From contig JAJDNM010000097.1 of the NCBI GenBank assembly GCA_022340665.1, positions 1 to 37,494 of the forward strand: a stretch of 37,494 nucleotides of DNA. Reading direction: 5' to 3'. The position numbers and the translations under genes were made by a program. The stretch is from Acidobacteriota bacterium. GTDB taxonomy: Bacteria; Acidobacteriota; Thermoanaerobaculia; Thermoanaerobaculales; Sulfomarinibacteraceae. Shown here piece after piece: positions 2 to 33,525 of the stretch; position 1 is the first letter of the stretch, and each line of letters begins with the position of its first letter. The notes under the pieces were generated by a model. That model was not told the origin of the DNA. It saw only the letters and a program-made list of their open reading frames with translations, and searched no databases.

Positions 2-523
2 GCGATATTTCCCACAGCCGGCGCCGCAGTCCTCCGCCACTCCTACGGCATCCCCGGCGTCATCGGCGAAGCCTCCTTCTTCACCAACCCCCGTGAAGAG
101 GAGCGCCTGCGCGATACGGTGTACAACCGGCGCGAGGCCGATGCGTACGTGGCGGCCCTGGCTGATTTTTTCTCCCGTCCCACACCCCCAATCCTCGACA
201 AGGGCTCGCTCGTCAGCGTCGAGCCCTTCGAGGTCTTCGAGCAGGCCGGGCGTATGAGTCCCGAAGCCCTTGAGTGGAAGGCGAGCTGGCTCGCGGGCCA
301 GGAAGCGCAGAGAATCGGCACACCCGAGGCCCTCGAGCAGGCGCTCCAGCTTTTCACCTTCTCCGCCCGAGCCTTTCCCGACTCGTGGATCGCACGCGAC
401 TGCCATCTGCGCAGGGCGGAGATTCTCGAAGCTCTGGGCCAGCACGAAGAAGCCGCGATGGCCCGGCTCCGCGCCGATGAGCTCTACGTCCCACTCGATC
501 TCCAATCAGGAGTTAGGAATTAG
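2..523 (+). CDS. N-acetylmuramoyl-L-alanine amidase, C-terminal part (left end outside window)
   Basis: The reading frame is open from base 2, so the start lies outside the window. The visible 173 residues begin with the end of an Amidase_3-type catalytic domain. The stretch HSYGIPGVIGEASFFTNPRE matches the usual 'P-x-V-L-x-E-x-x-F-x-T-N-x-x-E' block, whose Glu is a catalytic/zinc-site residue in the family. The domain closes with a helix (EADAYVAALADFF). A roughly 100-residue extension rich in Ala, Glu and Leu follows; its helical pairs resemble TPR repeats (ALEQALQLFTFSARAFPDSW, LRRAEILEALGQHEEAAMAR). The family cuts the bond between MurNAc and the stem peptide in the periplasm. The last codons (SGVRN-stop) fall inside a 7-bp repeat array, and the TAG stop is part of the AATTAGG unit, so the original C-terminus may have been altered. 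The family call is fairly sure; substrate and export cannot be judged here. Confidence 0.72.
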   Translation, partial: AIFPTAGAAVLRHSYGIPGVIGEASFFTNPREEERLRDTVYNRREADAYVAALADFFSRPTPPILDKGSLVSVEPFEVFEQAGRMSPEALEWKASWLAGQEAQRIGTPEALEQALQLFTFSARAFPDSWIARDCHLRRAEILEALGQHEEAAMARLRADELYVPLDLQSGVRN

Positions 524-610
524 GAATTCCCACCCTACCCTTCGGTTCTATCCGCGCACTGCGGGAGGGTGGGCGGCATTCCTAATTCCTCATTCCTCAT
601 TCCTCATTCT
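508..610. repeat. Palindromic heptamer-array element, copy 1
   Basis: The left array (about 508-530) reads in AATTAGG-type 7-bp units. The core runs from CCCACCCT to AGGGTGGGCGG, and the right array (578-610) reads ATTCCTA, ATTCCTC, ATTCCTC, ATTCCTC. The two arrays are inverted relative to each other, so the element can fold into a long imperfect hairpin. It begins inside the amidase coding end and contains its TAG stop. No transposase or coding frame is associated with it. A role as terminator or mRNA 3'-end structure is inferred from position. Confidence 0.8.
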
Positions 611-647
611 GAAAAGTTCTTGCTTTTCAGTATGGTGGGCGCATAAT
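609..647 (+). promoter_or_regulatory. Possible hutH promoter with overlapping inverted repeat
   Basis: CTGAAAAG (609-616) and CTTTTCAG (623-630) form a perfect 8-bp inverted repeat around TTCTTG. TTGCTT (620-625) could be a -35 box and CATAAT (642-647) a -10 box with a 16-bp spacer. The inverted repeat overlaps the proposed -35, as an operator would. About 110 bases separate this from the hutH start. The palindrome is certain; its regulatory role is inference. Confidence 0.35.
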
Positions 648-756: not shown

Positions 757-2286
757 ATGGCCGTTACCATCACTGGAAAAAATCTCACCATCGAAGATGT
801 CATCGCGGTCGCCCGCCACGGCGAAAGCGTCGAACTTCACCCCGACGCCGTCGAACGGATCACGCACTGTCGTGCATTCCTCGACGAACGGGTCGCCGCA
901 CGCGAGATCATGTACGGCGTCAACACGGGGATCGGCGAGTTCTCGGAGGTCGCACTCTCGGACGAGCAGGTGCGGGACTTTCAGCGCTACCTCATCTACA
1001 ACCATGCCGCAGGCATCGGCGAGCCATGCCCGATCGATCATATCCGGGCCGCGATGCTGCTGAGGGTCAACGTCCACGCCAACGGCCACTCCGGCTGCCG
1101 GCGCGAGATCACAGAGACCCTGATCGCCATGCTGAACGCCGGCGTGACCCCGGTGGTGTGCGAAAAGGGTTCGGTCGGCGCCTGCGGCGACCTCGCACCG
1201 ATGAGCCAGATCGCGCTGCTGATGATGGGCGAAGGCGAGGCCTTCTACCAGGGTGTGAGAATGCCCGGCGACAAGGCTCTCGAGGCGGCCGAGATTCCGA
1301 TGCCGGGTCTCGAGGTGCGCGACGGATTGGCCGTGATCAACGGCTCCAACCTGACCAATGCGATCGGCTGCCTGACGGTGTGGGACACCGAGCGTTTCAT
1401 CAAGCAAGCGGAGATCGCCTGCGCAATGAGCCTCGAAGCGCTGCGCGCCAATATGAAGCCTTACGATTCGCGAATTCACGAGCTGCGCGGTTTCCGGGGT
1501 GCGGTCGCTTCGGCGTCCAACATCCGAGCAGTGATCGACGGCTCCGATCTCTTGACCGGCAAGGAGAAGGTCAAGGTGCAGGACGCCTACAGCATGCGCT
1601 CATCGCCGCAGGTCATCGGCGCCGCCCGCGACCAGCTCCGATGGACGCGCGAGCAGCTGGAGATCGAGGCCAATGGCGTCGGCGACAACCCAATCTTCCT
1701 GCCGGACGACCAGATCGTTCTGACCGGAGCCAACTTCCAGGGCACCCCGATCAGCCTGCCGCTCGACACCCTCGGGGGAGCGATCACGATGGTCTGCGTT
1801 CTTTCGGAGCGCCGGCTCAACCGGCTCACCAATCCGGCATTGAGCGCAGGTTTGCCCCCGTTCCTGACCAAGGGCGCCGGGATGTTCTCCGGCATGATGC
1901 TGAGCCAGTACACCGCCGACATGCAGATCGTCGAGCAGCGGATCCTGTCGAACCCCGCCTTCACCCAGTCGATCCCGGCTGCGGCCGACCAGGAGGATTT
2001 CGTCTCGATGGGCATGAACACGGCCCTCAAGACCCGAACCATCCTCGACAACGCCCACGGTGTCCTCGGCATCGAGCTCATGGCCGCGGCGCAGGGCCTG
2101 GATTTTCGCGAGTTCGAACCCGGACACGGGACGCGGGCGGCCCGTGACGAAGTCCGTCGTCACGTCGAATTTCTCGACGAGGACCGGCCGCTCTATCCCG
2201 ACCACAACGCGATGAAGAAGGCGGTCGCCAAGCTCGATATTCTGCGTGCGGTGGAAGAGGAGATCGGGGAACTCACGACGTATTAG
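757..2286 (+). CDS. hutH: Histidine ammonia-lyase (MIO family) with Ala-Cys-Gly cofactor triad
   Basis: The 509-residue protein has the usual length of histidine ammonia-lyases, which convert histidine to urocanate and ammonia in the cytoplasm. The start ATG at 757 has GGAG at 747-750. Active-site landmarks fall where the Pseudomonas enzyme has them: Y53 in IMYGVNTGIG, H83 in YNHAAGIG, N196 in INGSNLTNAIGC, Y278 in QDAYSMR, and E413 in DQEDFVSMG. Glu at that last position is typical of histidine lyases, while Phe/Tyr lyases carry Gln. The MIO-forming triad at 142-144 is Ala-Cys-Gly (GSVGACGDLAPMSQ) instead of Ala-Ser-Gly. No hutU, hutI or hutG lies nearby, so the gene stands alone before thrC. 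The stop is directly followed by a heptamer array. Histidine is the best substrate guess; an aminomutase or a lyase for another amino acid remains possible. Confidence 0.88.
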   Translation: MAVTITGKNLTIEDVIAVARHGESVELHPDAVERITHCRAFLDERVAAREIMYGVNTGIGEFSEVALSDEQVRDFQRYLIYNHAAGIGEPCPIDHIRAAMLLRVNVHANGHSGCRREITETLIAMLNAGVTPVVCEKGSVGACGDLAPMSQIALLMMGEGEAFYQGVRMPGDKALEAAEIPMPGLEVRDGLAVINGSNLTNAIGCLTVWDTERFIKQAEIACAMSLEALRANMKPYDSRIHELRGFRGAVASASNIRAVIDGSDLLTGKEKVKVQDAYSMRSSPQVIGAARDQLRWTREQLEIEANGVGDNPIFLPDDQIVLTGANFQGTPISLPLDTLGGAITMVCVLSERRLNRLTNPALSAGLPPFLTKGAGMFSGMMLSQYTADMQIVEQRILSNPAFTQSIPAAADQEDFVSMGMNTALKTRTILDNAHGVLGIELMAAAQGLDFREFEPGHGTRAARDEVRRHVEFLDEDRPLYPDHNAMKKAVAKLDILRAVEEEIGELTTY

Positions 2287-2496
2287 TTTTGAGTTCTTAG
2301 TTTTGAGTTTTGAGTTTTCCGCCACCCGCTCTATTGATTGCGGGTGGAGGGGCGGGAACTCGCGCCCGGCAGCGATTCGCGGCTGACGGCCGAGAGGGAA
2401 GGATTGGTGGTGGTCGGTCTTCAGCCGCTCGCTGGCGGGAGTGAGTCACGACGCCCGCAGGGCGTCCGTAACTCTCAACTCTTAACTCCTCCCTCC
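2287..2496. repeat. Palindromic heptamer-array element, copy 2 (hutH-thrC gap)
   Basis: The left array starts at the base after the hutH stop: TTTTGAG, TTCTTAG, TTTTGAG, TTTTGAG (2287-2314). The right array (2470-2490) reads AACTCTC, AACTCTT, AACTCCT, which is the opposite orientation. Between them is a perfect 8-bp stem, CCACCCGC (2322-2329) with GCGGGTGG (2340-2347), loop TCTATTGATT, followed by about 120 bp of GC-rich sequence. There is no open frame of note. This element fills nearly the whole 240-bp intergenic gap. Confidence 0.75.
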
Positions 2497-2528: not shown

Positions 2529-3788
2529 ATGGCTCGCTTCCACTTCCGGTGCATCGAGTGCGGTGAGGAGTATCCGGAGGACCCGAACCGCCTGGTCTGC
2601 TCGACCTGCGCCGGGAAACAGGAACCGGGCGGGACCGTTCGCGGTGTGCTCGAGGTGGTCCTCAAAGTGCTGCCGAACTCATGGCCACACTTCAGGCCCT
2701 CCGACCGGGAGTTCCTCCACGCGTTTCTCCCGATCAACGACGAAAGTGCGCTCGCGCCGCTGCCGGTAGGCGACACACCGTTGCTCGATGTGTCCCGCGT
2801 CCGCGATGCCCTCGAGATGCCACACCTGTTCGTGAAGGACGACACCCGCAACCTGTCCGGTTCGACCAAGGATCGCGCGTCGCTGCTGGTGGTCGCCAAG
2901 GCCGCGGAGTACGGCTGCGACACCGTGGCCACCGCCTCGACCGGAAACGCGGCGTCGTCGCTGGCCGCAATTTCGGCCGCAACCGGCATGCGCGCCGTAG
3001 TCCTGGTACCCGCCGCGACGCCACCGGCCAAGCTCGCGCAAATGCAGAGCTATGGAGCGTCCGTGGTGCCGGTTTCAGGCACCTACGACGACGCCTTCGA
3101 ACTCTGTATCGCAGCCTGTAATGAGTTCGGCTGGTACAACCGGAGCACCGCCCTCAACCCGTTCACCATTGAGGGGAAGAAGACTGCGGCGCTCGAGATA
3201 GCGGTTGCCATGGCCCCTCATGCTCCCGATGTTCTGATCGTGCCGACGGGTGACGGTGTCATCCTCGGCGGCCTGGCCAAGGGCTTCCGGGACCTCGAAC
3301 TTGCGGGTCTGATCGATCGCCGTCCACGGTTCATCGCCGTCCAGCCGGATGGGTCCTCGGCCATAGTCCGGGCGCTTCGATCGGGCGAAGACCAGCCAGC
3401 GGAGATGACAGGCGCAGAAAGCGTTGCCGACAGCCTGACGGTCCAGACGCCGCGCAACGCCATCGGGTGCATGGCGGAGATCAGGGCTTCGGGCGGTAGC
3501 GGCGTGACCGTGTCGGACGAGGCGATCCTGGCTGCGATTTCTGACCTGGCGAGCTCGACCGGCGTGTTCGCCGAGCCGGCCGGCGCGGCAGCTCTGGCCG
3601 GACTTCGGGCAGCCCTCGACCAGAACCTCGTCAATCGGGACGAAACAGTCATTCTAATGGTGACGGGCAGTGGGCTCAAGGATGTCGGGGCTGCAGCAAA
3701 AGCCTTGCCGTCTCTCGAGCCGGTCGAGGCGAATCTCGAGGGCGTAGAGCGCGCGGTCAAGCTCTGCAATAAACGTTCAAACGTTTGA
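2529..3788 (+). CDS. thrC: Threonine synthase
   Basis: The 419-residue PLP enzyme converts O-phosphohomoserine to threonine, the last step of threonine synthesis. An N-terminal zinc-ribbon with C8, C11, C24 and C27 (RCIECGEEYP, LVCSTCAGK) is typical of the archaeal/Thermus-like class. K114 in NLSGSTKDRAS is the Schiff-base lysine. STGNAASSLAA binds the cofactor phosphate side, and PTGDGVILGGLAKGF is the conserved threonine synthase glycine-rich segment. MVTGSGLKD near the C-terminus is also family-typical. The start at 2529 lacks a ribosome site and has a -10 box 7 bases upstream. The last codons (KRSNV-stop) lie inside a 22-bp perfect palindrome, so the repeat seems to have reached into the gene. 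A homoserine dehydrogenase is encoded at 22.3 kb, but no homoserine kinase is visible. Confidence 0.92.
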   Translation: MARFHFRCIECGEEYPEDPNRLVCSTCAGKQEPGGTVRGVLEVVLKVLPNSWPHFRPSDREFLHAFLPINDESALAPLPVGDTPLLDVSRVRDALEMPHLFVKDDTRNLSGSTKDRASLLVVAKAAEYGCDTVATASTGNAASSLAAISAATGMRAVVLVPAATPPAKLAQMQSYGASVVPVSGTYDDAFELCIAACNEFGWYNRSTALNPFTIEGKKTAALEIAVAMAPHAPDVLIVPTGDGVILGGLAKGFRDLELAGLIDRRPRFIAVQPDGSSAIVRALRSGEDQPAEMTGAESVADSLTVQTPRNAIGCMAEIRASGGSGVTVSDEAILAAISDLASSTGVFAEPAGAAALAGLRAALDQNLVNRDETVILMVTGSGLKDVGAAAKALPSLEPVEANLEGVERAVKLCNKRSNV

Positions 3789-3927
3789 ACGTTCAACGTT
3801 AATATTTCTGTCGGTCGAGATCCTTCGACTCGTCGCCTCCCGTACCTCGCATCCGATCACAAACAGCTCCCGTGACGAAGTGGGAAGGGCGGGCGGGAAA
3901 TTCGAAATCCGAAATCCGAAATCGAAT
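3772..3927. repeat. Heptamer/palindrome element between convergent stops, copy 3
   Basis: A perfect 22-bp palindrome (3772-3793) is built from AACGTTC and its complement, followed by one more AACGTT; it overlaps the thrC stop at 3786-3788. At the other end, 3898-3927 reads in AAATCCG-type 7-bp units after a G-rich block (GGGCGGGCGGG). The array ends one base before the stop of the convergent gene (3929-3931). The middle contains no recognisable gene. Confidence 0.65.
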
Positions 3928-5085: not shown

Positions 5086-5142
5086 GGAAGATCCCGCTCC
5101 CGCATGCGGGCGTCAGGCCGGCAGGATGGTAGCACGGGGGAA

Positions 5143-5170
5143 GGATTTGGGATTTGGGATTTCAGAATTC
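5143..5170. repeat. Short heptamer array, copy 4 (single array)
   Basis: GGATTTG, GGATTTG, GGATTTC and AGAATTC lie in tandem with a 7-bp period. The array is between the start of the DUF374 gene and the stop of the kinase/glycosidase gene, both on the minus strand. Only one array is present, without the C-rich/G-rich core. Confidence 0.6.
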
Positions 5171-5185
5171 TGAGTATTTGGCCTG

Positions 5186-7363
5186 TCACTTGAGATGGTA
5201 ATAAATCGGGGAGGGTCCGAGCTTGACGGAGGTGCCATCAGGGACGGGCAAGGGTTGTCCATCGCGTGAAATGGCTTCGGAGGCGGGGCGGGGAAGAGTT
5301 GCCCTGGCACCGGCGGACACGCTCCAGCCGACGACCAGCTCTCGGTCGAGGCTGAAGTGGTAGAGGAATGTACCCTCGGGCGCCGACAAGGGCCCTCGGA
5401 AGTCGCTGCCCTCGACCTGGTCGATCAGCGTTCGGAGCGCGTGCCAGGATGGGCGCCGGCGGAGCGAACCGTCGCTCTCCGGCGACACCAGGCCGTAACC
5501 GCGGGCGATCAATTGCCACCAGAAGACGCGCTCGACAAGTCCAGTCCCGAGGGTCAAAAGGAAGTATCGAACGAGATAGTCCGCCTGCACCTCCTCGCTC
5601 ACCGAAACCGTCTTGCCCGCCGGAGAATGGGGCCCCTCCCACAACGGCCAGTTCACCTCGGTGATCCAGCAGCGATCACTCGAGTTCCGTCCAGTTTCGG
5701 CGATCGCCCGCAGCAGAGTGACCTTGTCGACCGTGTCGAGCCCCATCTGGCAATTCTCGGGTGCGCCGCGCCGGTCCACGTAGAGCAGGCTCGACACGAT
5801 ATCGAAGTGAAGTCCCGGCGTGCTCCTGTTGAGCAACGCGATCAGCGCCTGGAACTCGAAATCGATCACCGCCGGACCCATCACCTGGACGCCATCGATT
5901 CGGTGCAGGATCTCGGCCGCCTCGAGATAGAGATCGACGTACTCGCTGTGAGTCCAGATTCCCCACTTGCTGCGATTGATTGCCTGGCCGACCTGAAAAC
6001 AGCGGCCGAATCGGCTGAACCGTTCGCCCATTTCTTCGACAGATGCGCGCCACCGCGCGCGGTCCAGTACGAGGTCCCGGTTTTGCGGTATGACGAACGA
6101 GACCTCGTGCCCCCGGCCGACCAGGGATTCGGCCAATCGCACCTCGGCCACATGCTCACTTTCCCACGGGTGGAGACGCACGAGAACCGGACCTACACCC
6201 AGCGCCTCGATGAGTTCGAGCTGCGCCTCGAGGTCCGGCTCCCGCGGGCGCAACGCGAGCCCAATGCCCCCGAACGCGGTCGGCCTCTCGTACAGGGCCG
6301 ACTTGAGCTTTCGGTATCGACGTCTGACCTTCGCCGCAGACGCTGCCACGATTCCGAGATCACGGAGATGATCGGGACTGTCGGCAAGGCGGATGAAAAA
6401 CTTCTCGCCGCGGCTCGCGTGCTGGTGCGGTTGGTCGGAGAGGTGGTCCCAGACCGCCTTGTCTCGCGACGAGACACCCTCCGAAGCCGCGGGTATGTGG
6501 GCATGGTGGGAGCCTCCATGTGCGTGACGGCGTTTCAAGCGCAGGAACGTGGTCCTTTTCTTGATCGCATGCTTGAGGATGAATCCGTTGACCGACAAAG
6601 CGTAGAACCACCAGCGGAACGAAAGCCGGGGAGGGACTTCCCCCCAATAGCCCCCGAGAAAGGCGGCCCGGTGTTCCCGCTCCAGCACCGGCAGGCGGCA
6701 GATATCACGGGTCCTTCGGAAGACGCCAGGCGAGCGTCCGGTCCGCGCCCGGTTGAAGTCGATCAGATAGAGGTCGAGGTCGTCCGCTTCACCGACGGCG
6801 AGGATGTTTCCCATCGAAAGGTCGCGGTAGAGAATGCCGGCGTCGTTGATCTCCCTCGCCAGCCGGCCGAGCCTGCCGAGAAAATCGATGTCCTCCACCT
6901 CCGGGAACTCCCCCGCCAGCGGTTCGTGGTTGAGTCGGCGAAAGAACTGACGCACCTCGACTGCATCGTTCAACCGCTCGGCGATGAAGAAGGACGGCCC
7001 CTCCAACTCGGCCGACTCGACCCAGAGGATCGGCTCCGGTGTCGGAAGGCCCACCCGGACCAGCTCCTTGGCGACCCTCCAGCTTCGCTCGGCCTTGCTG
7101 CCCCGGATGCGACGATCGAGCCGACTCTTCAGGCCTTGGTTCTTGAACTGTTTGACGACCACCGGCAGCCTGCCCGCAGGGGTGTTCATCTCGGCCGCAT
7201 AGATGTAGTTCCGACCCCAGTGAATGGTCTCCGTCGCGCAGGAAGGATCGGTCAAGCGGGCGACCTCGCCTCCGACATCTTCAGGGCGGCGATCGGGCGC
7301 CACCTCACCGTAGAATTCCCCACAGTCGAAGGCATCGTACGGTGATCGGGCGTCTGCTGGCAC
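5186..7363 (-). CDS. Fusion of lipopolysaccharide-kinase-like domain and clan-A glycoside-hydrolase-like domain
   Basis: The 725-residue protein starts with GTG at 7363. Residues about 45-260 form a small kinase fold of the Kdo/WaaP/InaA type: K71 in VVVKQF, the catalytic loop ILYRDLSMGNIL with D181 and N186, and LIDFNRARTG with D202 in place of DFG. Residues about 365-650 look like a TIM-barrel glycosidase: GIGLALRPREPD and VLVRLHPWE on early strands, and WITEVNWPLWEG, where E569 fits the strand-7 nucleophile of clan GH-A. At the expected acid/base position I read FQVGQAINRSKWG, without an obvious Glu. A C-terminal beta-rich part (about 650-725) follows. No signal peptide is present, so the protein is probably cytoplasmic. 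The role is inferred as glycolipid or LPS-core phosphorylation coupled to glycan processing; the pairing itself is what the sequence shows. Confidence 0.78.
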   Translation of the reverse strand: MPADARSPYDAFDCGEFYGEVAPDRRPEDVGGEVARLTDPSCATETIHWGRNYIYAAEMNTPAGRLPVVVKQFKNQGLKSRLDRRIRGSKAERSWRVAKELVRVGLPTPEPILWVESAELEGPSFFIAERLNDAVEVRQFFRRLNHEPLAGEFPEVEDIDFLGRLGRLAREINDAGILYRDLSMGNILAVGEADDLDLYLIDFNRARTGRSPGVFRRTRDICRLPVLEREHRAAFLGGYWGEVPPRLSFRWWFYALSVNGFILKHAIKKRTTFLRLKRRHAHGGSHHAHIPAASEGVSSRDKAVWDHLSDQPHQHASRGEKFFIRLADSPDHLRDLGIVAASAAKVRRRYRKLKSALYERPTAFGGIGLALRPREPDLEAQLELIEALGVGPVLVRLHPWESEHVAEVRLAESLVGRGHEVSFVIPQNRDLVLDRARWRASVEEMGERFSRFGRCFQVGQAINRSKWGIWTHSEYVDLYLEAAEILHRIDGVQVMGPAVIDFEFQALIALLNRSTPGLHFDIVSSLLYVDRRGAPENCQMGLDTVDKVTLLRAIAETGRNSSDRCWITEVNWPLWEGPHSPAGKTVSVSEEVQADYLVRYFLLTLGTGLVERVFWWQLIARGYGLVSPESDGSLRRRPSWHALRTLIDQVEGSDFRGPLSAPEGTFLYHFSLDRELVVGWSVSAGARATLPRPASEAISRDGQPLPVPDGTSVKLGPSPIYYHLK

Positions 7364-7378: not shown

Positions 7379-7390
7379 CCCGGGCTTCGC

Positions 7391-7500
7391 AATTAGGAAT
7401 TAGGAGTTATGAATGAGGAATTCCCGCCCCTCCCCCCTGAGGCTTGGAGTCCGAGGGGGTGGGCGGCATTCCTAATTCCTCATTCCTAATTCTTCATTAG
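7391..7500. repeat. Palindromic heptamer-array element, copy 5
   Basis: The left array reads AATTAGG, AATTAGG, AGTTATG, AATGAGG. The core is CCCGCCCCTCCCCCC with a GGGGGTGGGCGG partner. The right array reads ATTCCTA, ATTCCTC, ATTCCTA, ATTCTTC. The order and spacing are the same as copy 1, and the right arm from GGGTGGGCGG through TCATTCCT is nearly identical between the two. It sits between the start of the fusion gene and the stop of hemW, which are on the same strand. Confidence 0.8.
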
Positions 7501-7549: not shown

Positions 7550-8698
7550 CTAGAGGACGAAGGAGCGCGCGAGGGTGTCGGCGATGGCGAGGCCTCTCAG
7601 GGTTGGTCGAAGTCGTGCGCCATCCACCAGGAGGTGGCCCGAATCGCTCAATCGATCGACCACCTCCGTGTTTGCAGCCATCAGATCAACAGCGTATCGA
7701 TCCGCCAGGCGGTCGAGGTCGACGCCCTCCGAGGTTCGAAAGCCGAGCATCAATGTCTCGAGGACGAGCTGTTCTTCCGACGGCCGCTCGTCGTCCTCGA
7801 CCGGTGCTTCCCGCGTCGCCAGTGCCTTCTGCCAGAGCCTCAGTCGAGGTCGGTTCCACCATCGCCGGCCGGCCGCGAACGAGTGAGCGGAGGGGCCCAA
7901 ACCGAGGTACGGAGAGTGATCCCAGTATTTCTGGTTGTGCTTCGAACGGTGCTCGGGTGACGACGCGAAGTTGGAGACTTCGTAACCCTCGAAGCCGGCC
8001 TCGGTCAACACTTCGTGGGTGAGGAAAAAGAGCCGTTCCAGACGAACGTCCTCGAGCTGTTTCACCGTCCCCCGAGCCACCCTCCGCCCGAGGAGCGTCT
8101 TCGGGTGAATCGTGAGCTGGTAGCAGCTGAGGTGGTCCGTTCCGAGGCCGACGGCGGTCTCGAGCTGGGCTCGCCAGTGTTCCGGAGATCTCCCGTGAAG
8201 CCCGTACATGAGGTCGATCGACACCGTGCTGAAGCCAGCCCCCATGAGCTCGTCCACGGCGCGGAAGGCATCTTGGGCACTATGCCGGCGGCCGAGGACG
8301 CCGAGATCGGTATCGTCGAATGACTGAACGCCGAGGCTCACGAAATCGACCCCGAGACGGCGCCAGGCAGCGGCGCTCCGAGCATTCACGTCCTCCGGGT
8401 TTGCCTCGAGAAAAATCTCCACACCGCGAACCAGATCGAGATGCCAATCGAGCGCGTCCACGACCCGGGAGAGTTGTTCCGGGGACAACGAAGATGGAGT
8501 TCCGCCGCCGAAATACAGGGTGTCGAAGGTGAGCCCGATCTCCTCGTACATTTCGGCCTCACTGATCACGCCCTCGACCCATCCCTCGCGCCGTTCCTCA
8601 CCTGCAATCGTCACCGCAAAATCACAATATGGGCAGACTGACGTGCAGAATGGAACGTGAACGTACAGGCCAGCGTTCTCCGGTGCCGAGGAAGTCAC
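7550..8698 (-). CDS. hemW: Radical SAM heme chaperone HemW (coproporphyrinogen oxidase-like)
   Basis: The 382-residue protein has the normal length for HemW. The [4Fe-4S] motif CTSVCPYCDF gives C18, C22 and C25 for radical SAM chemistry. GGGTPSSL follows at about 65-72. The HemN/HemW hallmark HNQKYW...YLGLGPSAHSF lies at about 270-290, with a winged-helix HemN_C part at the end. PWC- or PFC-type openings (VPFCTSVCPYCDF) are characteristic of HemW, and the family holds heme for delivery to respiratory enzymes. The start is GTG at 8698, with no good ribosome site; no upstream alternative fits better. The gene lies 197 bases downstream of lepA in the same orientation, a lepA-hemW order often seen in bacteria. 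HemN is less likely because of the CxxxCxYCDF form and the short length. Confidence 0.88.
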   Translation of the reverse strand: MTSSAPENAGLYVHVPFCTSVCPYCDFAVTIAGEERREGWVEGVISEAEMYEEIGLTFDTLYFGGGTPSSLSPEQLSRVVDALDWHLDLVRGVEIFLEANPEDVNARSAAAWRRLGVDFVSLGVQSFDDTDLGVLGRRHSAQDAFRAVDELMGAGFSTVSIDLMYGLHGRSPEHWRAQLETAVGLGTDHLSCYQLTIHPKTLLGRRVARGTVKQLEDVRLERLFFLTHEVLTEAGFEGYEVSNFASSPEHRSKHNQKYWDHSPYLGLGPSAHSFAAGRRWWNRPRLRLWQKALATREAPVEDDERPSEEQLVLETLMLGFRTSEGVDLDRLADRYAVDLMAANTEVVDRLSDSGHLLVDGARLRPTLRGLAIADTLARSFVL

Positions 8699-8707
8699 CG
8701 GTTACGC

Positions 8708-8895
8708 ATTTCGGATTTCGGATTTCGGAGTTCGGATTTACGTTCAACCTCACCAATCCCGTCGCTCGGTCGATTCGCTCCCGCGGTCGCGATAACAGAT
8801 GGAAACGTCATCCCGAATAAGACTGAAACGGGTGTTCGTATGGCATTCCGAATTCCGAATTCCTAATTCCTAATTCCTAATTCTTAATTCCTCAT
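8708..8895. repeat. Heptamer-array element, copy 6 (lepA-hemW gap)
   Basis: The left array (8708-8740) has TTTCGGA units. The right array (8845-8895) is the longest in the window: ATTCCGA, ATTCCGA, ATTCCTA, ATTCCTA, ATTCCTA, ATTCTTA, ATTCCTC. The switch from CCGA to CCTA within one array suggests local slippage and point change. It ends against the lepA stop (TGA on the minus strand, 8896-8898). About 100 bp of unassigned sequence separates the two arrays. Confidence 0.75.
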
Positions 8896-10692
8896 TCAAT
8901 CTCTATCCGTCTTCAACACGGCAACAAACGCGGATTGCGGGATCTCCACCGACCCCACCATCTTCATCCGCTTCTTGCCCTTCTTCTGCTTTTCGAGGAG
9001 CTTTCTTTTGCGGGTGATGTCGCCACCGTAGCACTTGGCGGTCACGTCCTTGCGGTAGGCGTTGATCGTTTTGCGGGCGATGATGTCGCCTCCCACCGCA
9101 CCCTGGATGGCGATCTTGAACTGCTGTTTGGGGATCGTATCCGCAAGCCTTTCGCAGTAATGCAGTGCACGAGCCCGGGCCTTTTCCTTGTGTACCAGCT
9201 GAGCAAGCGCGTCAACCGGTTCCCCGTTGACGAGGATGTCGACCTTGACCAGATCGGTCGGGCGGTAATCGAGCATTTCGTAGTCGAAGGATCCGTAGCC
9301 CTGGGTCACCGACTTGAGGCGATCGTAGAAATCGAAAAGGACCTCGGCCAGCGGCATTTCGGAGGTCAGCTCTACCCGGCCGACAGCGAGATAGTTGAAG
9401 GTCGTGTTCTCGCCTCGCCGCTCCCGGCACAGCTCCATCACCGGACCGACGTAACGCTCCGGCATCATGACCGACGCCTTGATATACGGCTCCTCGGAAC
9501 TCTCGATGGACCCGCGATCGGGGTAGAGGCTGGGATTGTCCACCCACAGCTCCTGGCCGTCGGTCATCGTCACCCGGTAACGGACCGAGGGCGCCGAGAG
9601 GATGAGCGACAGATCGTACTCCCGCCGAAGCCGTTCCTGGACGACCTCGAGGTGGAGAAGGCCGAGGAAACCACAGCGGAAACCGAAGCCGAGGGCTGAC
9701 GACGAGTCCTTCTCGTAGGTCAGAGCGGCGTCGTTGAGCTTGAGCTTTTCCAGCGCCTTCGTCAGGTCGGGATACTCGTCGGTCGACATCGGGTAGATCG
9801 ACGAGAACACCACCGGCTTCGCCTCCTTGTAGCCGGGCAGCGGCTCGGCAGCAGATTCGTCCGCATCGGTGATGGTGTCCCCGATCGCGATGTCCGACAC
9901 TGCCTTGACCCCCGCGATGACGTAGCCAACCATGCCCGCGGCCAATTCTTCGGTCGCTACCTTGTTGATCTTCAGGAGGCCGACTTCCTCGACGGTGTAG
10001 GTCTTGTCGGCGTGCATCAGAAGGATCTTCTGGCCGGGCCGCAGCGTGCCCTCCATGACCCGCACCAGTAGTACCGCCCCACGATAAGGGTCGTACTGGG
10101 CGTCGAAGATCAGCGCCTGTAACGGCGCCGAGGGATTTCCGCTCGGCGGCGGCAATCGCTGGACGATGGCCTCGAGGACCTCTTCGATGCCTTCGCCAGT
10201 TTTGGCCGAGCACAGCACGGCGTCATCGGCATCGAGGCCGAGATCCTCCTCGATCTCCTCCCTGACGCGATCGACGTCAGCCGCTGGCAGGTCGATCTTG
10301 TTGATGACCGGCACCATCTCGAGGTCGTGCTCGAGCGCGAGGTAGAGGTTGGCGACTGTCTGCGCCTCGACGCCCTGCGATGCGTCCACCAGGAGCAATG
10401 CTCCCTCGCACGACATCAGCGAGCGGCGCACCTCGTGCGAGAAGTCCACGTGCCCGGGAGTGTCGATCAGATTGAGCTTGTACGCCTTGCCATCACGAGC
10501 CGTGTAATCCAGGGTCACCGTGTTCGACTTGATGGTGATGCCTCGTTCACGCTCGATGTCCATCGAGTCGAGGATCTGGTCACGGAACTCGCGATCCTCC
10601 ACCGCACCGCAGTACTGGATCAACCGGTCGGCAAGCGTTGACTTGCCGTGATCGATGTGCGCGATGATGCAAAAGCTGCGAACGTTGTCCAA
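8896..10692 (-). CDS. lepA: Elongation factor 4 (LepA), ribosome back-translocating GTPase
   Basis: The protein is 598 residues if begun at the TTG at 10692, the usual LepA length. GGGAGGAA lies 5 bases upstream, and the product then begins [19 protein letters not shown], matching the family N-terminus. An in-frame TTG at 10740 would add 16 residues without a ribosome site. The P-loop AHIDHGKST, the switch region [24 protein letters not shown] and NKIDLP define the GTPase domain. The middle carries the EF-G-like domains II, III and V, and the C-terminal LepA-specific domain ends [17 protein letters not shown]. It binds stalled ribosomes and moves tRNAs back one step. The gene is divergent from a response regulator gene and upstream of hemW. 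Confidence 0.93.
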
Positions 10693-13287: not shown

Positions 13288-14892
13288 TCAGTGAATGTAG
13301 CCGAGCTCGCGAAGCCGCTTGATCTCCTCCTCGCTCAGCTCCGCCTCGTTGACCTCAGCCATCGCCGCCCCTTCAACACGTTCCCTCAATTTCGAACGCA
13401 GTTCATCGAGGATCTCTGACGCCGATGGGGCAAGGTTTTGGATCTCACCTGGATCGTTGTGCAAGTCATAGAGCTCCTCCCACTCGCGATCATCGGTACG
13501 CGAGTGGATGTACTTGTAGCCCCGCGCGACCACCGCTTGCTTGTCCGCATAGGCCTCCGGGCGGTAGGTCACACCGTAGATCGGCCGGCTTTCGACCTTC
13601 GCTCCGTGAATCAGGGGGAGCAGGCTGACACCGCTCGCGGATTCGGGTTTCGGTAGAACGAGAAGCTCGGAGATGGTCGGCAGGACATCAATCAGTGAAA
13701 CCGGTTCTTGAATCACCACGCCTTCCGGCAGCCGGCCCGGAAAAGACATGATGAGTGGCACCCTCAGAAGCGAATCATAGAGCTGGCTGATATGGCCGAC
13801 ATGGTTGTGCTCACCGAGTCCTTCGCCGTGATCCGAAGCGAAAACGACCAGAGTATTCTCGAGCAGCTCGAGCTCTCGCAGACGGCTCAGGAGAAGGCCG
13901 ATTTGCCGGTCCACATACTCGACCTCCAGAGCATACCGTTCAGCGATCTCCGCTCGCTTGAGAACCCGTTTGCAGGCGGTCTCCAGGACAGCGGGACGTG
14001 GATCGGAACCTGGATTCACCAACTCGACCGTGGCCGGGAAAGTCCCCTGATACGCAGGTTGCCCAACCCGTTTCTCTCTCGTCTTCCACTTCGCGGGCGG
14101 TCGCACCTCGAATGACCGATCGTCCAACCGGATATTCGTAAGACGATAGAGGTCGGACCGCTTTGTACCAGCGTCACGAAACCGAAGGTGGTTGACCCCT
14201 GGCTGGAGCTCGATTTCGAACGACTGCCCCCTCCCACCGGCCGTCAGTTCGCCAATCGGGACTCCGTTCAGTGCGAGCGGAATTTTCGGGTATTCGAGGG
14301 TCGGCGGGGCGTAGGGTTCGTGGGGATCCGAGTAGTGAACCCACAGAAAAAAGGGTTGCATGAACCCTCCCTCGAGGATCTCGAAGACCTCCTGGTTCAC
14401 CTGCCCGGCATCTTTCATCCAATCGCTGCCGAATTCATCCCGGTACACTTCGAAACCTCGACCGATCTCGAACTTTCGTTTGAGCACTCCAAGACTGATG
14501 ACCGCGGCCGTGTTGCGCGCGTTGTCTCGGAGAATCTCGGCCAGGGTGCGGAATTTCGGATCGAGGATTTGCCCATTGTTGTGCACGCTGTGTTCGAAAG
14601 GAAGCAGGGAGGTGAAGAGTGATGAATGGCTTGGGCCGGTGATCGGAATCTGTGCGTACGCCTGTCTGAAAGTCACTCCCCGGGCTGCCAGATCATCAAT
14701 GTTCGGGGTCGCGATACTGGCGCCGTACACGCCGACATGATCCGCCCGCAGGGTGTCAACCACGATCAACACGACGTTTTCGGGCGGCTGTCCACCACCA
14801 CAACCACCCGTCACCGCGGCAAAAACCGTCAGCCAAAGCACGATCCGCAGATATGAAATGCGGCGGAGGAAGCGGCGTATTGAATTACCCAT
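13288..14892 (-). CDS. Sulfatase-family lipoprotein with Thr at the nucleophile position
   Basis: The 534-residue protein has an N-terminal signal with a possible lipobox ending at C31 (VTGGCGGG), placing it on the outside of a membrane. The alkaline-phosphatase-superfamily core shows D46 in VVDTLRADH, the nucleophile block ITGPSHSSLFTS with T85 where sulfatases carry Cys/Ser of CxPSR, and FASDHGEGLGEH with the late metal ligands. Thr at this place is what phosphotransferases and phosphodiesterases of the superfamily use, so sulfatase activity is doubtful. An insert at about 215-300 (QPGVNHLRFRDAG) looks like a beta-sandwich. The C-terminus ends EEEIKRLRELGYIH, a tail shared with two neighbouring unrelated proteins. 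TAGAAT lies 8 bases before the ATG and no ribosome site is seen. Confidence 0.82.
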   Translation of the reverse strand: MGNSIRRFLRRISYLRIVLWLTVFAAVTGGCGGGQPPENVVLIVVDTLRADHVGVYGASIATPNIDDLAARGVTFRQAYAQIPITGPSHSSLFTSLLPFEHSVHNNGQILDPKFRTLAEILRDNARNTAAVISLGVLKRKFEIGRGFEVYRDEFGSDWMKDAGQVNQEVFEILEGGFMQPFFLWVHYSDPHEPYAPPTLEYPKIPLALNGVPIGELTAGGRGQSFEIELQPGVNHLRFRDAGTKRSDLYRLTNIRLDDRSFEVRPPAKWKTREKRVGQPAYQGTFPATVELVNPGSDPRPAVLETACKRVLKRAEIAERYALEVEYVDRQIGLLLSRLRELELLENTLVVFASDHGEGLGEHNHVGHISQLYDSLLRVPLIMSFPGRLPEGVVIQEPVSLIDVLPTISELLVLPKPESASGVSLLPLIHGAKVESRPIYGVTYRPEAYADKQAVVARGYKYIHSRTDDREWEELYDLHNDPGEIQNLAPSASEILDELRSKLRERVEGAAMAEVNEAELSEEEIKRLRELGYIH

Positions 14893-20780: not shown

Positions 20781-20815
20781 AAATCGGAGTTCGGTATTCG
20801 GAATGCCGCCACCCC
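20781..20815. repeat. Heptamer-array half element, copy 7a
   Basis: AAATCGGAGTTCGGTATTCGG is followed by AATGCCGCCACCCC, i.e. degenerate 7-bp units running into the same GCC-GCC-ACCCC core seen in the other copies. Directly to its right begins the larger inverted repeat at 20825. Confidence 0.5.
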
Positions 20816-20824
20816 TCTTTCACG

Positions 20825-20952
20825 ATGTCATTCCGACCGAGCGAACGGTGTGAGCGAGCGGAGGAATCCATGGTCAAAGTAAGACCGCGCTGCTGCCCGG
20901 GCCCATCCCTTAGATCCCTCCACTCAGCCTTTGGCCTCGGTCGGGATGACAT
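20825..20952. repeat. Inverted-repeat element (about 128 bp) with ATGTCATTCC ends
   Basis: The left end ATGTCATTCCGACCGAG (20825-20841) matches the complement of the right end CTCGGTCGGGATGACAT (20936-20952) with one mismatch. The interior also carries GGAGGAATCC near the left and GATCCCTCC near the right. This is the layout of the short 'GTCATTC...GAATGAC' inverted elements common in environmental bacterial genomes. No coding frame is inside. It may be a non-autonomous mobile element or a REP-type structure. Confidence 0.6.
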
Positions 20953-20959
20953 TCCGGTT

Positions 20960-21077
20960 GGGCTCGTCGGACGAGCCCGTCATCATGAAATTTCGGATTT
21001 CGAATTTCCCGCCCACACCCCCGAAGAACGGGGTGGTGGACGGGAATTCAAAATTCAAAATTCAAAATTTAACATTC
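20960..21077. repeat. Hairpin plus palindromic heptamer-array element, copy 7b
   Basis: GGGCTCGT (20960-20967) pairs perfectly with ACGAGCCC (20971-20978). The array element follows: TTTCGGA, TTTCGAA (20990-21005), a CCCGCCCACACCCCC core with GGGGTGGTGGACGGG partner, then AATTCAA, AATTCAA, AATTCAA (about 21045-21070). The element ends about 20 bases before the aminotransferase start and lies inside a presumed operon. With copy 7a and the inverted repeat, the whole 20734-21096 gap is repeat sequence. Confidence 0.7.
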
Positions 21078-29779: not shown

Positions 29780-30700
29780 GTGAAGATCCGCGCCGCCACT
29801 CTGGGTGCCGCCTGCATCTGCCTGTCGGCCGCCCTTTGGGGCCTGGACGGGGTCGTTCTGACACCCCGGCTGGCAAACCTGCAGGTTCCATTCGTGGTCT
29901 TTTTGCTGCACGCGATCCCCTTCGCGCTGATGCAGCCCTTTTTGTGGTCCAGCTATCGCCGTCTGCGCGAGATGCCTACCCGGGGCTGGCTCGCGCTCTC
30001 GCTGGTCGCTTTCACCGGCGGCCTCCTCGGCACGCTGGCCATTGTCAACGCGCTCTTTCTCGTCGATTTCAATCAGCTCAGCGTGGTGGTCCTTCTGCAG
30101 AAGCTGCAGCCCGTCTTCGCCCTCGCTCTGGCGGCCGTCCTGCTCGGAGAACGGGTCAGCGCCAGATTCGTGGCGGCCGCGGTAGTGGCCCTGGCCGGCG
30201 CCTACCTGCTGACCTTTGGTCTCGCTATGCCGGACGCAACGGCAGACGGGGTCTCCCTCAAAGCGGCGTTGTTGGCCATTCTTGCCGCAGCGGCTTTCGG
30301 CTCCGCAACCGTTCTGAGCAAGATGCTGCTCGGCTCGCTCGATTTCAAGGACGCGACCTTCGCCCGCTACGGCATGACCTCTGCGATGGCCCTGCTCTAC
30401 CTCGCCGTGCGTGGCATCGGCCTTCCCTTCGCGTCCGTCACCGGCACCAACTGGGCGGTGATCCTCGTCATCTCCCTGACCACCGGGTCGGGCGCCATCT
30501 TCCTCTACTACTATGGATTAACGCGGGTGCGGGCGAGTGTCGCCACCATTTGCGAGCTCTGTCTGCCGCTCTCCGCAGTTCTCCTCGACTACATCGTCAA
30601 CGACTCGGTACTCGGCCCCTGGCAATGGGTGGGAGCAGCCCTTCTCGTCGGCGCGATTCTGCGGATCACGATCACGCCGGAAAACGGGAAACAAGAATGA
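29780..30700 (+). CDS. EamA/DMT-family transporter
   Basis: The 306-residue protein has ten hydrophobic helices in two EamA halves. The first half has SAALWGLDGVVLTPRL, and the pattern LLQKLQPVFALALAAVLLGER is the EamA family signature before the halves meet. The second has AAAAFGSATVLSKMLLGSLD and CELCLPLSAVLLDYIVND. GTG at 29780 follows AAAGG by 6 bases. The substrate of such drug/metabolite transporters cannot be told by sequence alone. The gene starts 22 bases after the membrane protein and may share its transcript. Its TGA stop is part of an AATGAGG repeat unit, so the final residues NGKQE abut the heptamer element. Confidence 0.9.
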   Translation: MKIRAATLGAACICLSAALWGLDGVVLTPRLANLQVPFVVFLLHAIPFALMQPFLWSSYRRLREMPTRGWLALSLVAFTGGLLGTLAIVNALFLVDFNQLSVVVLLQKLQPVFALALAAVLLGERVSARFVAAAVVALAGAYLLTFGLAMPDATADGVSLKAALLAILAAAAFGSATVLSKMLLGSLDFKDATFARYGMTSAMALLYLAVRGIGLPFASVTGTNWAVILVISLTTGSGAIFLYYYGLTRVRASVATICELCLPLSAVLLDYIVNDSVLGPWQWVGAALLVGAILRITITPENGKQE

Positions 30701-30800
30701 GGAATGAGAAATTAGGTATTCCCACCCCTGCCCCCTGTGATATCAACGTCCCGGGCGGGTGGACGGCATTCCTAATTCCTAACTCCTAATTCCTCATTCA
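30696..30800. repeat. Palindromic heptamer-array element, copy 8, bridging two convergent stops
   Basis: The left array has AATGAGG, AATGAGA and AATTAGG. The core is CCCACCCCTGCCCCC with a GGGCGGGTGGACGG partner. The right array reads ATTCCTA, ATTCCTA, ACTCCTA, ATTCCTC, ATTCA. The element starts inside the EamA stop (TGA 30698-30700) and ends on the stop of the convergent toroid-like gene (30798-30800). The whole intergenic gap is the element. A bidirectional terminator function is the natural reading but is not shown. Confidence 0.8.
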
Positions 30801-31766
30801 ATCTGGTTTTTGCGGGAACATTCTCGGGAGCTGCGCATCGACGGCGAAGGTCATCAGAGCGACCGCACACTTCAGGGTCACCCACCGAGACGGCTCGCCG
30901 GGCTCGGCACCGCTCACGACTCCGAGAGAGCGTGGCACCGGAGCCCTTCGCCGCCACCGTCCACCATCTATTTGACGGTTCTGCAGATGCCTGAGCAGCG
31001 GAACCATGGCGGGCTGGAGCGACGTCTCCGATTTTGCGAGCGACCATAGCACCTCCGCCTCGTCGGTCCTTCCGAGGCATGGATGGCCGTCGTCACCCGA
31101 CAGCGAGTCGGACGAGGAGATAAGCCGCATGATCGATCCGGTCGCACGATCCCTCAGTCGTTTTCTCTTGCGGTCACCGCACGCGGTCAGGGCCGCAAGG
31201 AGGGCGATCGGCGTGACGTCACACTCACCCGAGCTGTCCCGGCGCCTCCAGCAACGCCAGCCACCGTCCGGGTGTCCGGCGTCGCCTTCTTCCAGCCACG
31301 CCAGACCTTCCTGAAATCGCTGATGGTGGCACCAACCCAGCTCGGCCAGCCCGTGCAGCACCCTGGCCGTCAACCACGGCACGGCCTGGCCTCCTTCCGC
31401 GCGCGCGAACCCCCCTTCGCCCGGGGCGGTCTCCAGGATCATCTCGGCCGCCGCCTGGAGCCTGGGGTCGGTCGGATCGGCGCCCCACTGGACGGCCGCC
31501 AGCAAGCGCCACCCGGGGCCCGCATAGGCACGCCACAGGGGCGTGTCGGTCGACCATGTACCGTCCGGGGCGAGATCCGCGATCAGGGTCGCAACCGGCT
31601 CGGCGGCGTTCGAGCCTCCGCGGGCACGGATCACGGCCGGGCTGTCCGATGGTCTCTTGATGAGCTCGGTCAGAGCCCTCCAATGAAGATTCGGCCGACG
31701 CGCATCGAGGAGCCACGGGAGGGGATCGCCACGTAATGACTCCCAGGGTTGATCGCAGGCCTTCAC
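30798..31766 (-). CDS. Toroid-like (prenyltransferase/squalene-cyclase-repeat-like) hypothetical protein
   Basis: The 322-residue soluble protein has no signal or membrane helix and starts at GTG 31766. It begins DPLPWLLDARRPNLHWRAL, an opening seen in several alpha/alpha-toroid-like bacterial proteins. Repeats with Gly-Trp or Gly-Gly turns follow at regular distance: APDGTWS, APGEGGFAR, GHPDGGWRCW, DDGHPCLGR, IDGGRWRRR. These resemble QW-like repeats of terpene cyclase and prenyltransferase barrels. The DxDD or zinc-ligand set of the true enzymes is not visible, so catalytic activity is doubtful. Neighbours give no functional hint. Family assignment is moderate. Confidence 0.72.
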   Translation of the reverse strand: MKACDQPWESLRGDPLPWLLDARRPNLHWRALTELIKRPSDSPAVIRARGGSNAAEPVATLIADLAPDGTWSTDTPLWRAYAGPGWRLLAAVQWGADPTDPRLQAAAEMILETAPGEGGFARAEGGQAVPWLTARVLHGLAELGWCHHQRFQEGLAWLEEGDAGHPDGGWRCWRRRDSSGECDVTPIALLAALTACGDRKRKRLRDRATGSIMRLISSSDSLSGDDGHPCLGRTDEAEVLWSLAKSETSLQPAMVPLLRHLQNRQIDGGRWRRRAPVPRSLGVVSGAEPGEPSRWVTLKCAVALMTFAVDAQLPRMFPQKPD

Positions 31767-32063: not shown

Positions 32064-32075
32064 CTGCACCTCCAC

Positions 32076-32258
32076 TAACCCGGCCTTCTCACCGGGTGTC
32101 TACTGCGGGCGGCGGATGACAGCGATCTGTCGTGCTTTTCGCAAATCGTGCTCCTCGACGTAGTGCTACTACGCCTGCGTCGCCCGATCCGCGAAATACC
32201 CAACATCTCACTACCCTTCGCCGCCCTCGTCGCGAAACCCGGTGAGAAGACCGGGCTA
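32076..32258. repeat. REPIN/MITE-like element with 22-bp inverted ends
   Basis: The ends (32076-32097 and 32237-32258) are inverted repeats matching at 20 of 22 positions. Each end is itself a hairpin, ACCCGG and CCGGGT around an 8-base CCTTCTCA loop, so the layout is two REP-type hairpins facing each other. TA lies at both outer edges, as in TA-target elements. The interior holds further self-complementary parts, including GTAGTGCTACTAC near the middle. It has no frame of its own. Non-autonomous mobility or a structured RNA are both possible. Confidence 0.72.
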
Positions 32259-32340
32259 ACAATTCCAGTGTAACCGACGGTCACTCGCCCACTCGGTGAT
32301 CAGCCGACAGAGGGCTGGCGAGTTGGTTGCTGGCCACTGA

Positions 32341-33525
32341 TTACTGGTCACTGGTTGCACGGGCGGACCGCAGGGCGCCCTGCCGGTATTCGACAACATC
32401 ATTCGCCCGCGAGGCGAGCTCGCGATCCGGGGTCAGCCAGATTGCCGTGCGACCCACCGACGCCCGGACCACCGCCGCCCGCCAGAGCTCGCCCCGGACG
32501 GCGTTGACCCACGGCATCGGGTCGACAACGACGAGGATGCGGTAGGACGACGGAATGACCCGCGCCGCCTGCACGAGCATGCGGTGGTACGGAGTCAGCG
32601 GAGCCCCGTCGACTTCGAGATGGCGATCACCCAACGCATCAACGACTTCTTCGAGAGAGCAGGCTTCCCTGATTGCCGCGAGGGCAGCACGATCGAGTCC
32701 GGTTTCGGCGAGGGGCGTCAGATTGGCGACCAGCGCTCCGGGCACGAAGTCCTCGCCGGGAGCGACCAATGCCACCAGCCGCTCCCCTGCTTCGGGAGGC
32801 GACCCATCGATCATCACCTGCCCTGACAGGGGCGGGCGACGACCGGTCACGACTTCAGCGAACGCTGCCGCCTCTGCCGGTGAATCACAGAGGATCGCGA
32901 TCGACTCGCCGGCTCGAAGATCGAGATTGATCGGGACCGTTCGAGGCAGAGAATCGTCTCCCGGCACCACAATGTCCCTCAGACTCACGGTGCCGCGGAT
33001 GTCGCGGCCAGGCGGACTCGGTTGGGAACGATCCTGTGTTGGGGAGGAGAATCGAGCAATTCGCTGGGCGAAGAAGATCAGGATGGCGGGCGCCAACCAC
33101 CCGCCGCTGTCCAACGCCACGAGTCGAGGCTCGAGCACGAAGGCCATGCCCCATCCCAGGATGGCCAGCAAATCTGCAACGTCCGGGCGGCTGAGGTTTC
33201 GCCTCCCGACGGTCAGTGCGACGGCCACCACCAGGGCGGCCAGAAGGACCCAACTGAAGGTCAGCTCCCAGCCCCCTTCGAACAGGAGAAATCCCGCTGC
33301 CGAGCCGATGACCACCACGCTTGACCACGGTTCGGTCGCGCGCCTCCTGTCGACCGAGCGATGAACTGCAAGTGCCGCAGCGGTGATCACTGGAGCCAGG
33401 TTCGGTCTCCACCAAGCGACCCAGGGCAGCGCCGCGAACAGGGCCGCGTGGCACCATCCGGCGACCACGGTCCAAGGCAAATTCACGGGCCGATGGTACC
33501 CCGGCAAGGCTGCCGTACCAAGCAT
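32341..33525 (-). CDS. Membrane-anchored pseudo-ABC ATPase-like protein
   Basis: The protein is about 394 residues from the ATG at 33525. The N-terminal half has five or so hydrophobic helices (WTVVAGWCHAALFAALPWVAWW, PVITAAALAV, VVVIGSAAGFLLFE, WVLLAALVVAVAL, LAILGWGMAFVL, LAPAILIFFA). The C-terminal half follows the outline of an ABC exporter ATPase: a strand set VSLRDIVVPGDD, then LRAGESIAILCDSPAEAA where GxxGxGK(S/T) should be, GQVMIDGSPP, a Q-loop-like VALVAPGEDF, LTPYHRMLVQAARV in the place of LSGGQ, and YRILVVVDPMPWV in the place of Walker B. The Walker A Lys, the signature motif and the catalytic Glu are all missing, so ATP hydrolysis is unlikely. No partner gene is adjacent. An inactive exporter half with a structural or regulatory role is inferred. 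Confidence 0.72.
   Translation of the reverse strand: MLGTAALPGYHRPVNLPWTVVAGWCHAALFAALPWVAWWRPNLAPVITAAALAVHRSVDRRRATEPWSSVVVIGSAAGFLLFEGGWELTFSWVLLAALVVAVALTVGRRNLSRPDVADLLAILGWGMAFVLEPRLVALDSGGWLAPAILIFFAQRIARFSSPTQDRSQPSPPGRDIRGTVSLRDIVVPGDDSLPRTVPINLDLRAGESIAILCDSPAEAAAFAEVVTGRRPPLSGQVMIDGSPPEAGERLVALVAPGEDFVPGALVANLTPLAETGLDRAALAAIREACSLEEVVDALGDRHLEVDGAPLTPYHRMLVQAARVIPSSYRILVVVDPMPWVNAVRGELWRAAVVRASVGRTAIWLTPDRELASRANDVVEYRQGALRSARATSDQ

Follow-up and report, generated by a model that had tools for sequence, protein, structure and literature searches.

A heptamer-armed, possibly REP-like hairpin element carrying the stop codons of two convergent genes in an acidobacterial genome

The element between EamA and its convergent neighbour

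The stretch of DNA analysed here (the window) is the 37,494-nucleotide contig C97 of a metagenome-assembled genome (MAG) of 3.95 Mb from a seafloor acidobacterium, labelled G000, which belongs to the genus of Candidatus Sulfomarinibacter (Acidobacteriota, Thermoanaerobaculia). In this window, a gene whose product matches the EamA transporter family (Pfam PF00892) converges on a gene at 31766-30798 for which no Pfam match was found. The 97 bp between the two stop codons consist entirely of a repeat element (30692-30802; Table 1), and this element contributes both stop codons. The TGA of EamA sits within GAATGAGGAATGAG, among GAATGAG heptamers, and the TCA that marks the stop of the opposing gene sits within CCTCATTCAAT, among ATTC heptamers. 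An earlier note on this DNA had described the stretch 30696-30800 as running exactly from one stop to the other, and this description is borne out, as both stops lie inside the arms of the element and nothing else is found in the gap.

The termini of the element are AAGAATGAGG and CCTCATTCAATC, and its arms are composed of SRRT heptamers on the left and AYYS heptamers on the right. Between the two stop-bearing arms lie a C-rich box, also written CCCACCCC, and a G-rich box. When folded as RNA, the plus strand of the element reaches a minimum free energy of -40.8 kcal/mol and its minus strand one of -47.2 kcal/mol (z about -5), values that no shuffled sequence equalled. A known structured RNA family was rejected, since the whole window gives no Rfam match at the gathering threshold.

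A family of period-7 repeats with a common grammar

The EamA element belongs to an abundant group of repeats. In sampled stretches of the genome totalling 837 kb, tracts with a period of 7 nt number 184. No other period yields more than 43 (the multiple 14 left aside), and although coding density is 90%, just 10 of the period-7 tracts are mostly coding, which argues against a chance origin. The heptamers are of many kinds (ATTCCTA, ATTCCGA, ATTCGAA, ATCCGAA, ATCCAGC, ACTCAAA, ACTCTCA and others), yet 90% of the tracts conform on one strand to a single degenerate unit, A-Y-Y-S-N-N-N, as do only 37% of position-permuted units. The general plan of an element is a left arm (NNN-SRRT)n, a core with C-rich and G-rich boxes, and an inverted right arm (AYYS-NNN)n. 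Neighbouring tracts up to 200 bp apart always stand in the order of hairpin arms, with reverse-then-forward pairs seen 22 times and forward-then-reverse pairs never, and the inner flank of the arms is G-rich.

At the free positions of the heptamer, the two arms of one element pair in 72% of cases, compared with 47% when partners are shuffled. Shuffling the units within an arm hardly changes the overall pairing (81.2% before and 80.2% after), so exact compensatory pairing was rejected, and the complementarity of the arms is a matter of the kind of heptamer rather than of an exactly maintained stem. Within one array, the units are 89% identical. The loops are largely unrelated, with only 54 loop-loop matches among 92 elements, most of which are box or arm sequence, and recent full-length copying was therefore rejected for the family as a whole. 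The exception is the ATCCAGC type, whose members (L038, L045, L189, L201, L202 and L203 of G000) have a related loop, GAATTGTCAAG, unlike the other elements, and may represent a younger subfamily. Units of a different length also occur: at L037 of G000 (13767-14052), a heptamer arm has as its neighbour in the same intergenic gap a repeat of 8-9-nt units (CACAGAGGACACAGAGG, CGCAAAGACGCAAAG).

Placement at gene ends and the question of termination

Genes for the placement statistics were called with a simple hexamer model. Of 127 stops that face an array, 54 have the array over them or within 10 bp (null expectation 32), whereas the same holds for only 6 of 115 starts that face an array (null 17). 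Arrays overlap 22 stops outright and 3 starts. They are present in 30% of the gaps between convergent genes, 15% of those between tandem genes and 23% of those between divergent genes, with respective densities of 3.0, 1.8 and 1.1 per kb of non-array gap. In the divergent gaps that carry them (22 of 94), the arrays lie well away from the starts, and 66 of 94 convergent gaps have no array. The enrichment at gene 3' ends for which the earlier note had proposed a test is present. The bias is real, yet not exclusive, and the exact stop-to-stop filling at EamA is the extreme of this broader pattern.

This distribution could reflect a function at the end of transcripts. The elements could be bidirectional terminators, as the earlier note suggested, or mRNA 3'-end hairpins, retained by selection at gene ends. 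The strong folding of both strands, the enrichment at 3' ends and in convergent gaps, the complementarity of the arms and the presence of arrays at orthologous gaps despite changes in sequence (see below) all agree with this explanation, but the anatomy of the elements lends it no support. An intrinsic (Rho-independent) terminator was rejected because no T-run follows the stem: the outer flanks of 178 arms contain 15-26% T at every position, leaving the transcript without a U-tract. A scan for the intrinsic-terminator consensus returned a single weak site, which lies on the minus strand, and shuffled sequences give 0.5. Elements are also located inside same-strand junctions and in 5' regions, many convergent gaps do without an array while divergent gaps have them, the pairing is hardly register-specific, and the EamA pair of one sister genome (G001) has no element in its gap. 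We regard selection for a terminator or 3'-end hairpin as rather unlikely. A dedicated bidirectional terminator in particular is not supported, and the missing T-run, the arrays in divergent gaps and the convergent pairs without an element make it less likely than a repetitive extragenic palindromic (REP)-like element.

Probably old sites and young arrays

Comparison with other genomes of the genus separates the position of the elements from their sequence. At the EamA site, the arms are of the ATTCCTC/ATTCCTA type in G000, of the ACTGAT type in G002 and of the GAGAGTT/ATTCCTA type in G004, and in all three species the stop falls within the first heptamers. G003 has unrelated repeats at this site, and in G001 the two stops are 5 bp apart. 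The lepA stop is accompanied by an array in four species, again with differing heptamers. Across 65 comparisons of orthologous gaps, a small set in which some comparisons share a gap, an array is present in both genomes in 13 cases, only in G000 in 7, only in the sister in 3 and in neither in 42 (P=2e-6); for unique gaps longer than 60 bp, the corresponding counts are 10, 2, 3 and 11 (P=0.005). At the conserved sites, the best heptamer match is 5.54 of 7 positions, compared with 5.27 at unrelated sites (P=0.17, n=13), in a sample where many sister contigs had been picked for carrying ATTCCTA arrays, which can lower the heptamer identity in the sister. The presence of an array is conserved at orthologous gaps, and the heptamer is not inherited. 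Together with the high identity of units within each array, this indicates that the sites are old and the arrays young.

Three orthologous gaps that lack an element are tight: 5 bp at EamA in G001, 0 bp at thrC in G003 and 12 bp between hemW and Kdo in G003. In several other genera without arrays, lepA and hemW are separated by about 15 bp or less, or overlap. These tight empty sites lend support to insertion, which the earlier note had raised, in a form targeted to 3' ends, as the other possibility.

Turnover of this kind would also be expected if the arrays were plain heptamer microsatellites without mobility or function, in which the arrays arise in intergenic DNA by slippage and their inverted partners by template switching at quasi-palindromes. 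The identity of units within arrays and the differences between species at the same site fit this explanation, and hairpin stems are indeed known to be made and repaired through template switching where the hairpin is imperfect (PMC8794818). Microsatellites would, however, leave unexplained the common AYYS rule, the C- and G-rich boxes inside the arms, and the existence of element-free gaps of 0-12 bp beside whole elements of about 105 bp in sister species, and we consider this origin unlikely.

A REP-like hairpin as the preferred explanation

A REP-like palindrome with a tendency to settle between genes is favoured by the anatomy of the elements and by the tight empty sites. On this proposal, which in our judgement has an even chance of being correct, the EamA element represents a single copy from a dispersed family of REP-like extragenic hairpins found mainly at gene 3' ends. 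Copies would lodge where genes closely adjoin, for the most part on their 3' side, where damage is expected to be least and where the arm often supplies a new in-frame stop. After arrival, the arms may lengthen and change through 7-nt slippage, and also by copying between arms or from other elements, which would yield young arrays at old sites; the template switching mentioned above offers a known way for such stems to be made and mended. Transcription of either strand would give a long hairpin, and such hairpins may shield mRNAs or set where they end, though likely as a by-product rather than as a proven purpose.

Several observations weigh against this proposal. Nothing that could move the element, transposase or otherwise, was found. 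The genome has five Y1_Tnp matches, of which three were inspected, and none of these three has an array directly beside it; on the C68 stretch, other genes stand between the Y1 gene and its nearest array. The Y1 transposase family is present in 120 of 149 genomes of the class, whether or not arrays are present, and a RAYT/Y1 transposase was accordingly rejected as the mover. Full-length copying is not directly seen, the loops being mostly unrelated. Of the features of miniature inverted-repeat transposable elements (MITEs), inverted arms and empty sites are present, while target duplications are not readable at repeat edges and no link to a transposase was found. Finally, the conserved sites could equally mean that selection acts for a hairpin there.

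Arrays beyond the genus

In a search of 60 relatives, all matches to ATTCCTA fell within the genus, in its five genomes. Other genera of the class and of the phylum have period-7 arrays that differ in sequence. In these, the positions A, Y, Y and C are steadier, and the last three drift within single arrays, as in ACTCAGC to ACTCAGT to ACTCATC. With the arrays selected by the search pattern excluded, 68% of 60 tracts from other Acidobacteriota fit AYYS, compared with 37% expected (P=1e-6, an optimistic value because the two arms of an element do not count as independent). For contigs of class genera drawn at random, the figures are 47% and 31% (P=0.16), from a small sample (n=15). At L213 of G006, whose genus lacks ATTCCTA arrays, the lepA 3' gap is occupied by another kind of palindromic repeat (CATCCTGAGC...GCTCAGGGTGACA).

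The contrast between a conserved tetramer and a drifting NNN in distant Acidobacteriota, and the excess of AYYS even outside the pattern hits, would suit arrays that offer many binding sites to a dedicated factor, acting on DNA or RNA, that reads AYYS/SRRT every 7 nt. There is no candidate protein for such a factor, the freedom of positions 4-6 could also reflect mutational bias, and the stretches were chosen near hits, so that this explanation appears very doubtful. A wider proposal, which we put forward as tentative and rather improbable, holds that heptamer-armed hairpins extend through the phylum and are both built and kept by a dedicated factor reading one degenerate AYYS (SRRT) tetramer per 7 nt, which would rewrite heptamers at fixed sites, position and grammar being inherited and sequence not.

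Relation to known repeats

To our knowledge, reports of heptameric repeats from scattered bacteria go back decades, with no rule or mechanism to unify them. Those of Xanthomonas (GGGAATC) and Nostoc (GGGGA(C/T)T) are biased towards stop codons, avoid divergent gaps and vary in sequence at positions that are conserved (Rehm et al. 2015, PMC4692102). By inspection, both heptamers fit SRRT/AYYS, and the arrays described here resemble these intergenic simple sequence repeats in being tandem 7-mers that are intergenic, near stops and rarer between divergent genes. Unlike them, the present family comprises many heptamers under one degenerate rule, has arms inverted around C- and G-rich boxes that form full hairpins, and shows replacement of the heptamer at conserved sites; these three traits are new here. 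The TAACTGA arrays of marine Beggiatoaceae consist of a single, directly repeated heptamer, and most of them immediately precede start codons (MacGregor 2015, PMC4679880). They are likewise dispersed intergenic heptamer arrays of a sediment bacterium, and their unit, read as ACTGATA, fits AYYS by inspection, but they do not share the inverted arms, the many heptamers or the stop bias.

REP and REPIN sequences are similar in being high-copy intergenic palindromes near gene 3' ends with hairpins on both strands. REPs are described as 20-40 bp long, bearing a tagged foot and linked to a RAYT transposase gene (PMC3733652, PMC2817692). In contrast, the present elements measure about 105 bp and have heptamer arms; no GTAG/CGTC foot was found at the ends of the EamA element, nor a linked Y1 gene. 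The elements show how a repeat can supply stop codons, and a degenerate 7-nt grammar across Acidobacteriota genera, with inverted arms and replaced heptamers, gives concrete tests of a binding factor, of termination and of strain-level turnover.

Other elements in the window

The window contains further arrays and elements, several of them at stop codons (Table 1).

Table 1. Genes and repeat features at the EamA locus and elsewhere in the window
Feature	Position	Strand	Remarks
EamA transporter gene	29780..30700	+	left arm supplies its stop
Left heptamer arm	30692..30716	.	GAATGAG GAATGAG AAATTAGG; holds EamA stop TGA 30698-30700
C-rich box CCCACCCCTGCCCCC	30721..30735	+	pairs with G-rich box
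G-rich box GGGCGGGTGGACGGC	30753..30767	+	immediately inside right arm
Right heptamer arm	30768..30802	.	ATTCCTA ATTCCTA ACTCCTA ATTCCTC ATTCAAT; holds opposing stop TCA 30798-30800
Convergent gene	30798..31766	-	"toroid-like" in the earlier note; no Pfam match
Second full element	493..612	.	left arm contains stop (521-523) of upstream amidase-like gene
Element with ACTCAAA/ACTCTCA arms	2285..2490	.	begins 5 bp past hutH stop
thrC/hypothetical gap	3771..3926	.	AACGTT-type array over thrC stop; ATCCGAA-type array 2 bp from facing stop; arms not inverted partners
Lone left arm (GGATTTG)	5141..5166	.	close to 3' end of 5186-7363 gene
Full element	7387..7495	.	between 5186-7363(-) and hemW-like 7550-8698(-)
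Element between hemW-like gene and lepA	8702..8895	.	right arm at lepA stop; same position in G002, G003, G004 with different heptamers
Element, AATTTCG left / AATTCAA right	20985..21077	.	part of composite of repeats

Contacts between arrays and the stops of the amidase, hutH and lepA genes had been pointed out before and are confirmed: the amidase-like stop falls inside the array 506-529, the hutH stop (2286) is 5 bp from an array, and the lepA stop (8896) is inside or adjoining the array 8842-8897. The thrC gap, which the earlier note (as 3772-3927) had equated with that of EamA, agrees in part. The stop of thrC (2529-3788, PALP fold) is inside the array 3771-3800, and the facing stop is next to the array 3896-3926, but since its left and right arrays are unrelated as inverted partners, it is a looser case of stop-to-stop filling.

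In the composite intergenic stretch 20782-21077, a heptamer left arm is followed by an unrelated palindromic repeat and then by a full heptamer element, which suggests that elements land within or beside one another. A second dispersed repeat of about 185 bp, partly palindromic, is located at 32073-32260, with copies 80-92% identical across the genus. Close by, the minus-strand gene 32341-33486 ends on a TAA (complement TTA, 32341-32343) that is overlapped by ACTGATT/ACTGGTC heptamers at 32330-32357, a further array that supplies a stop codon.
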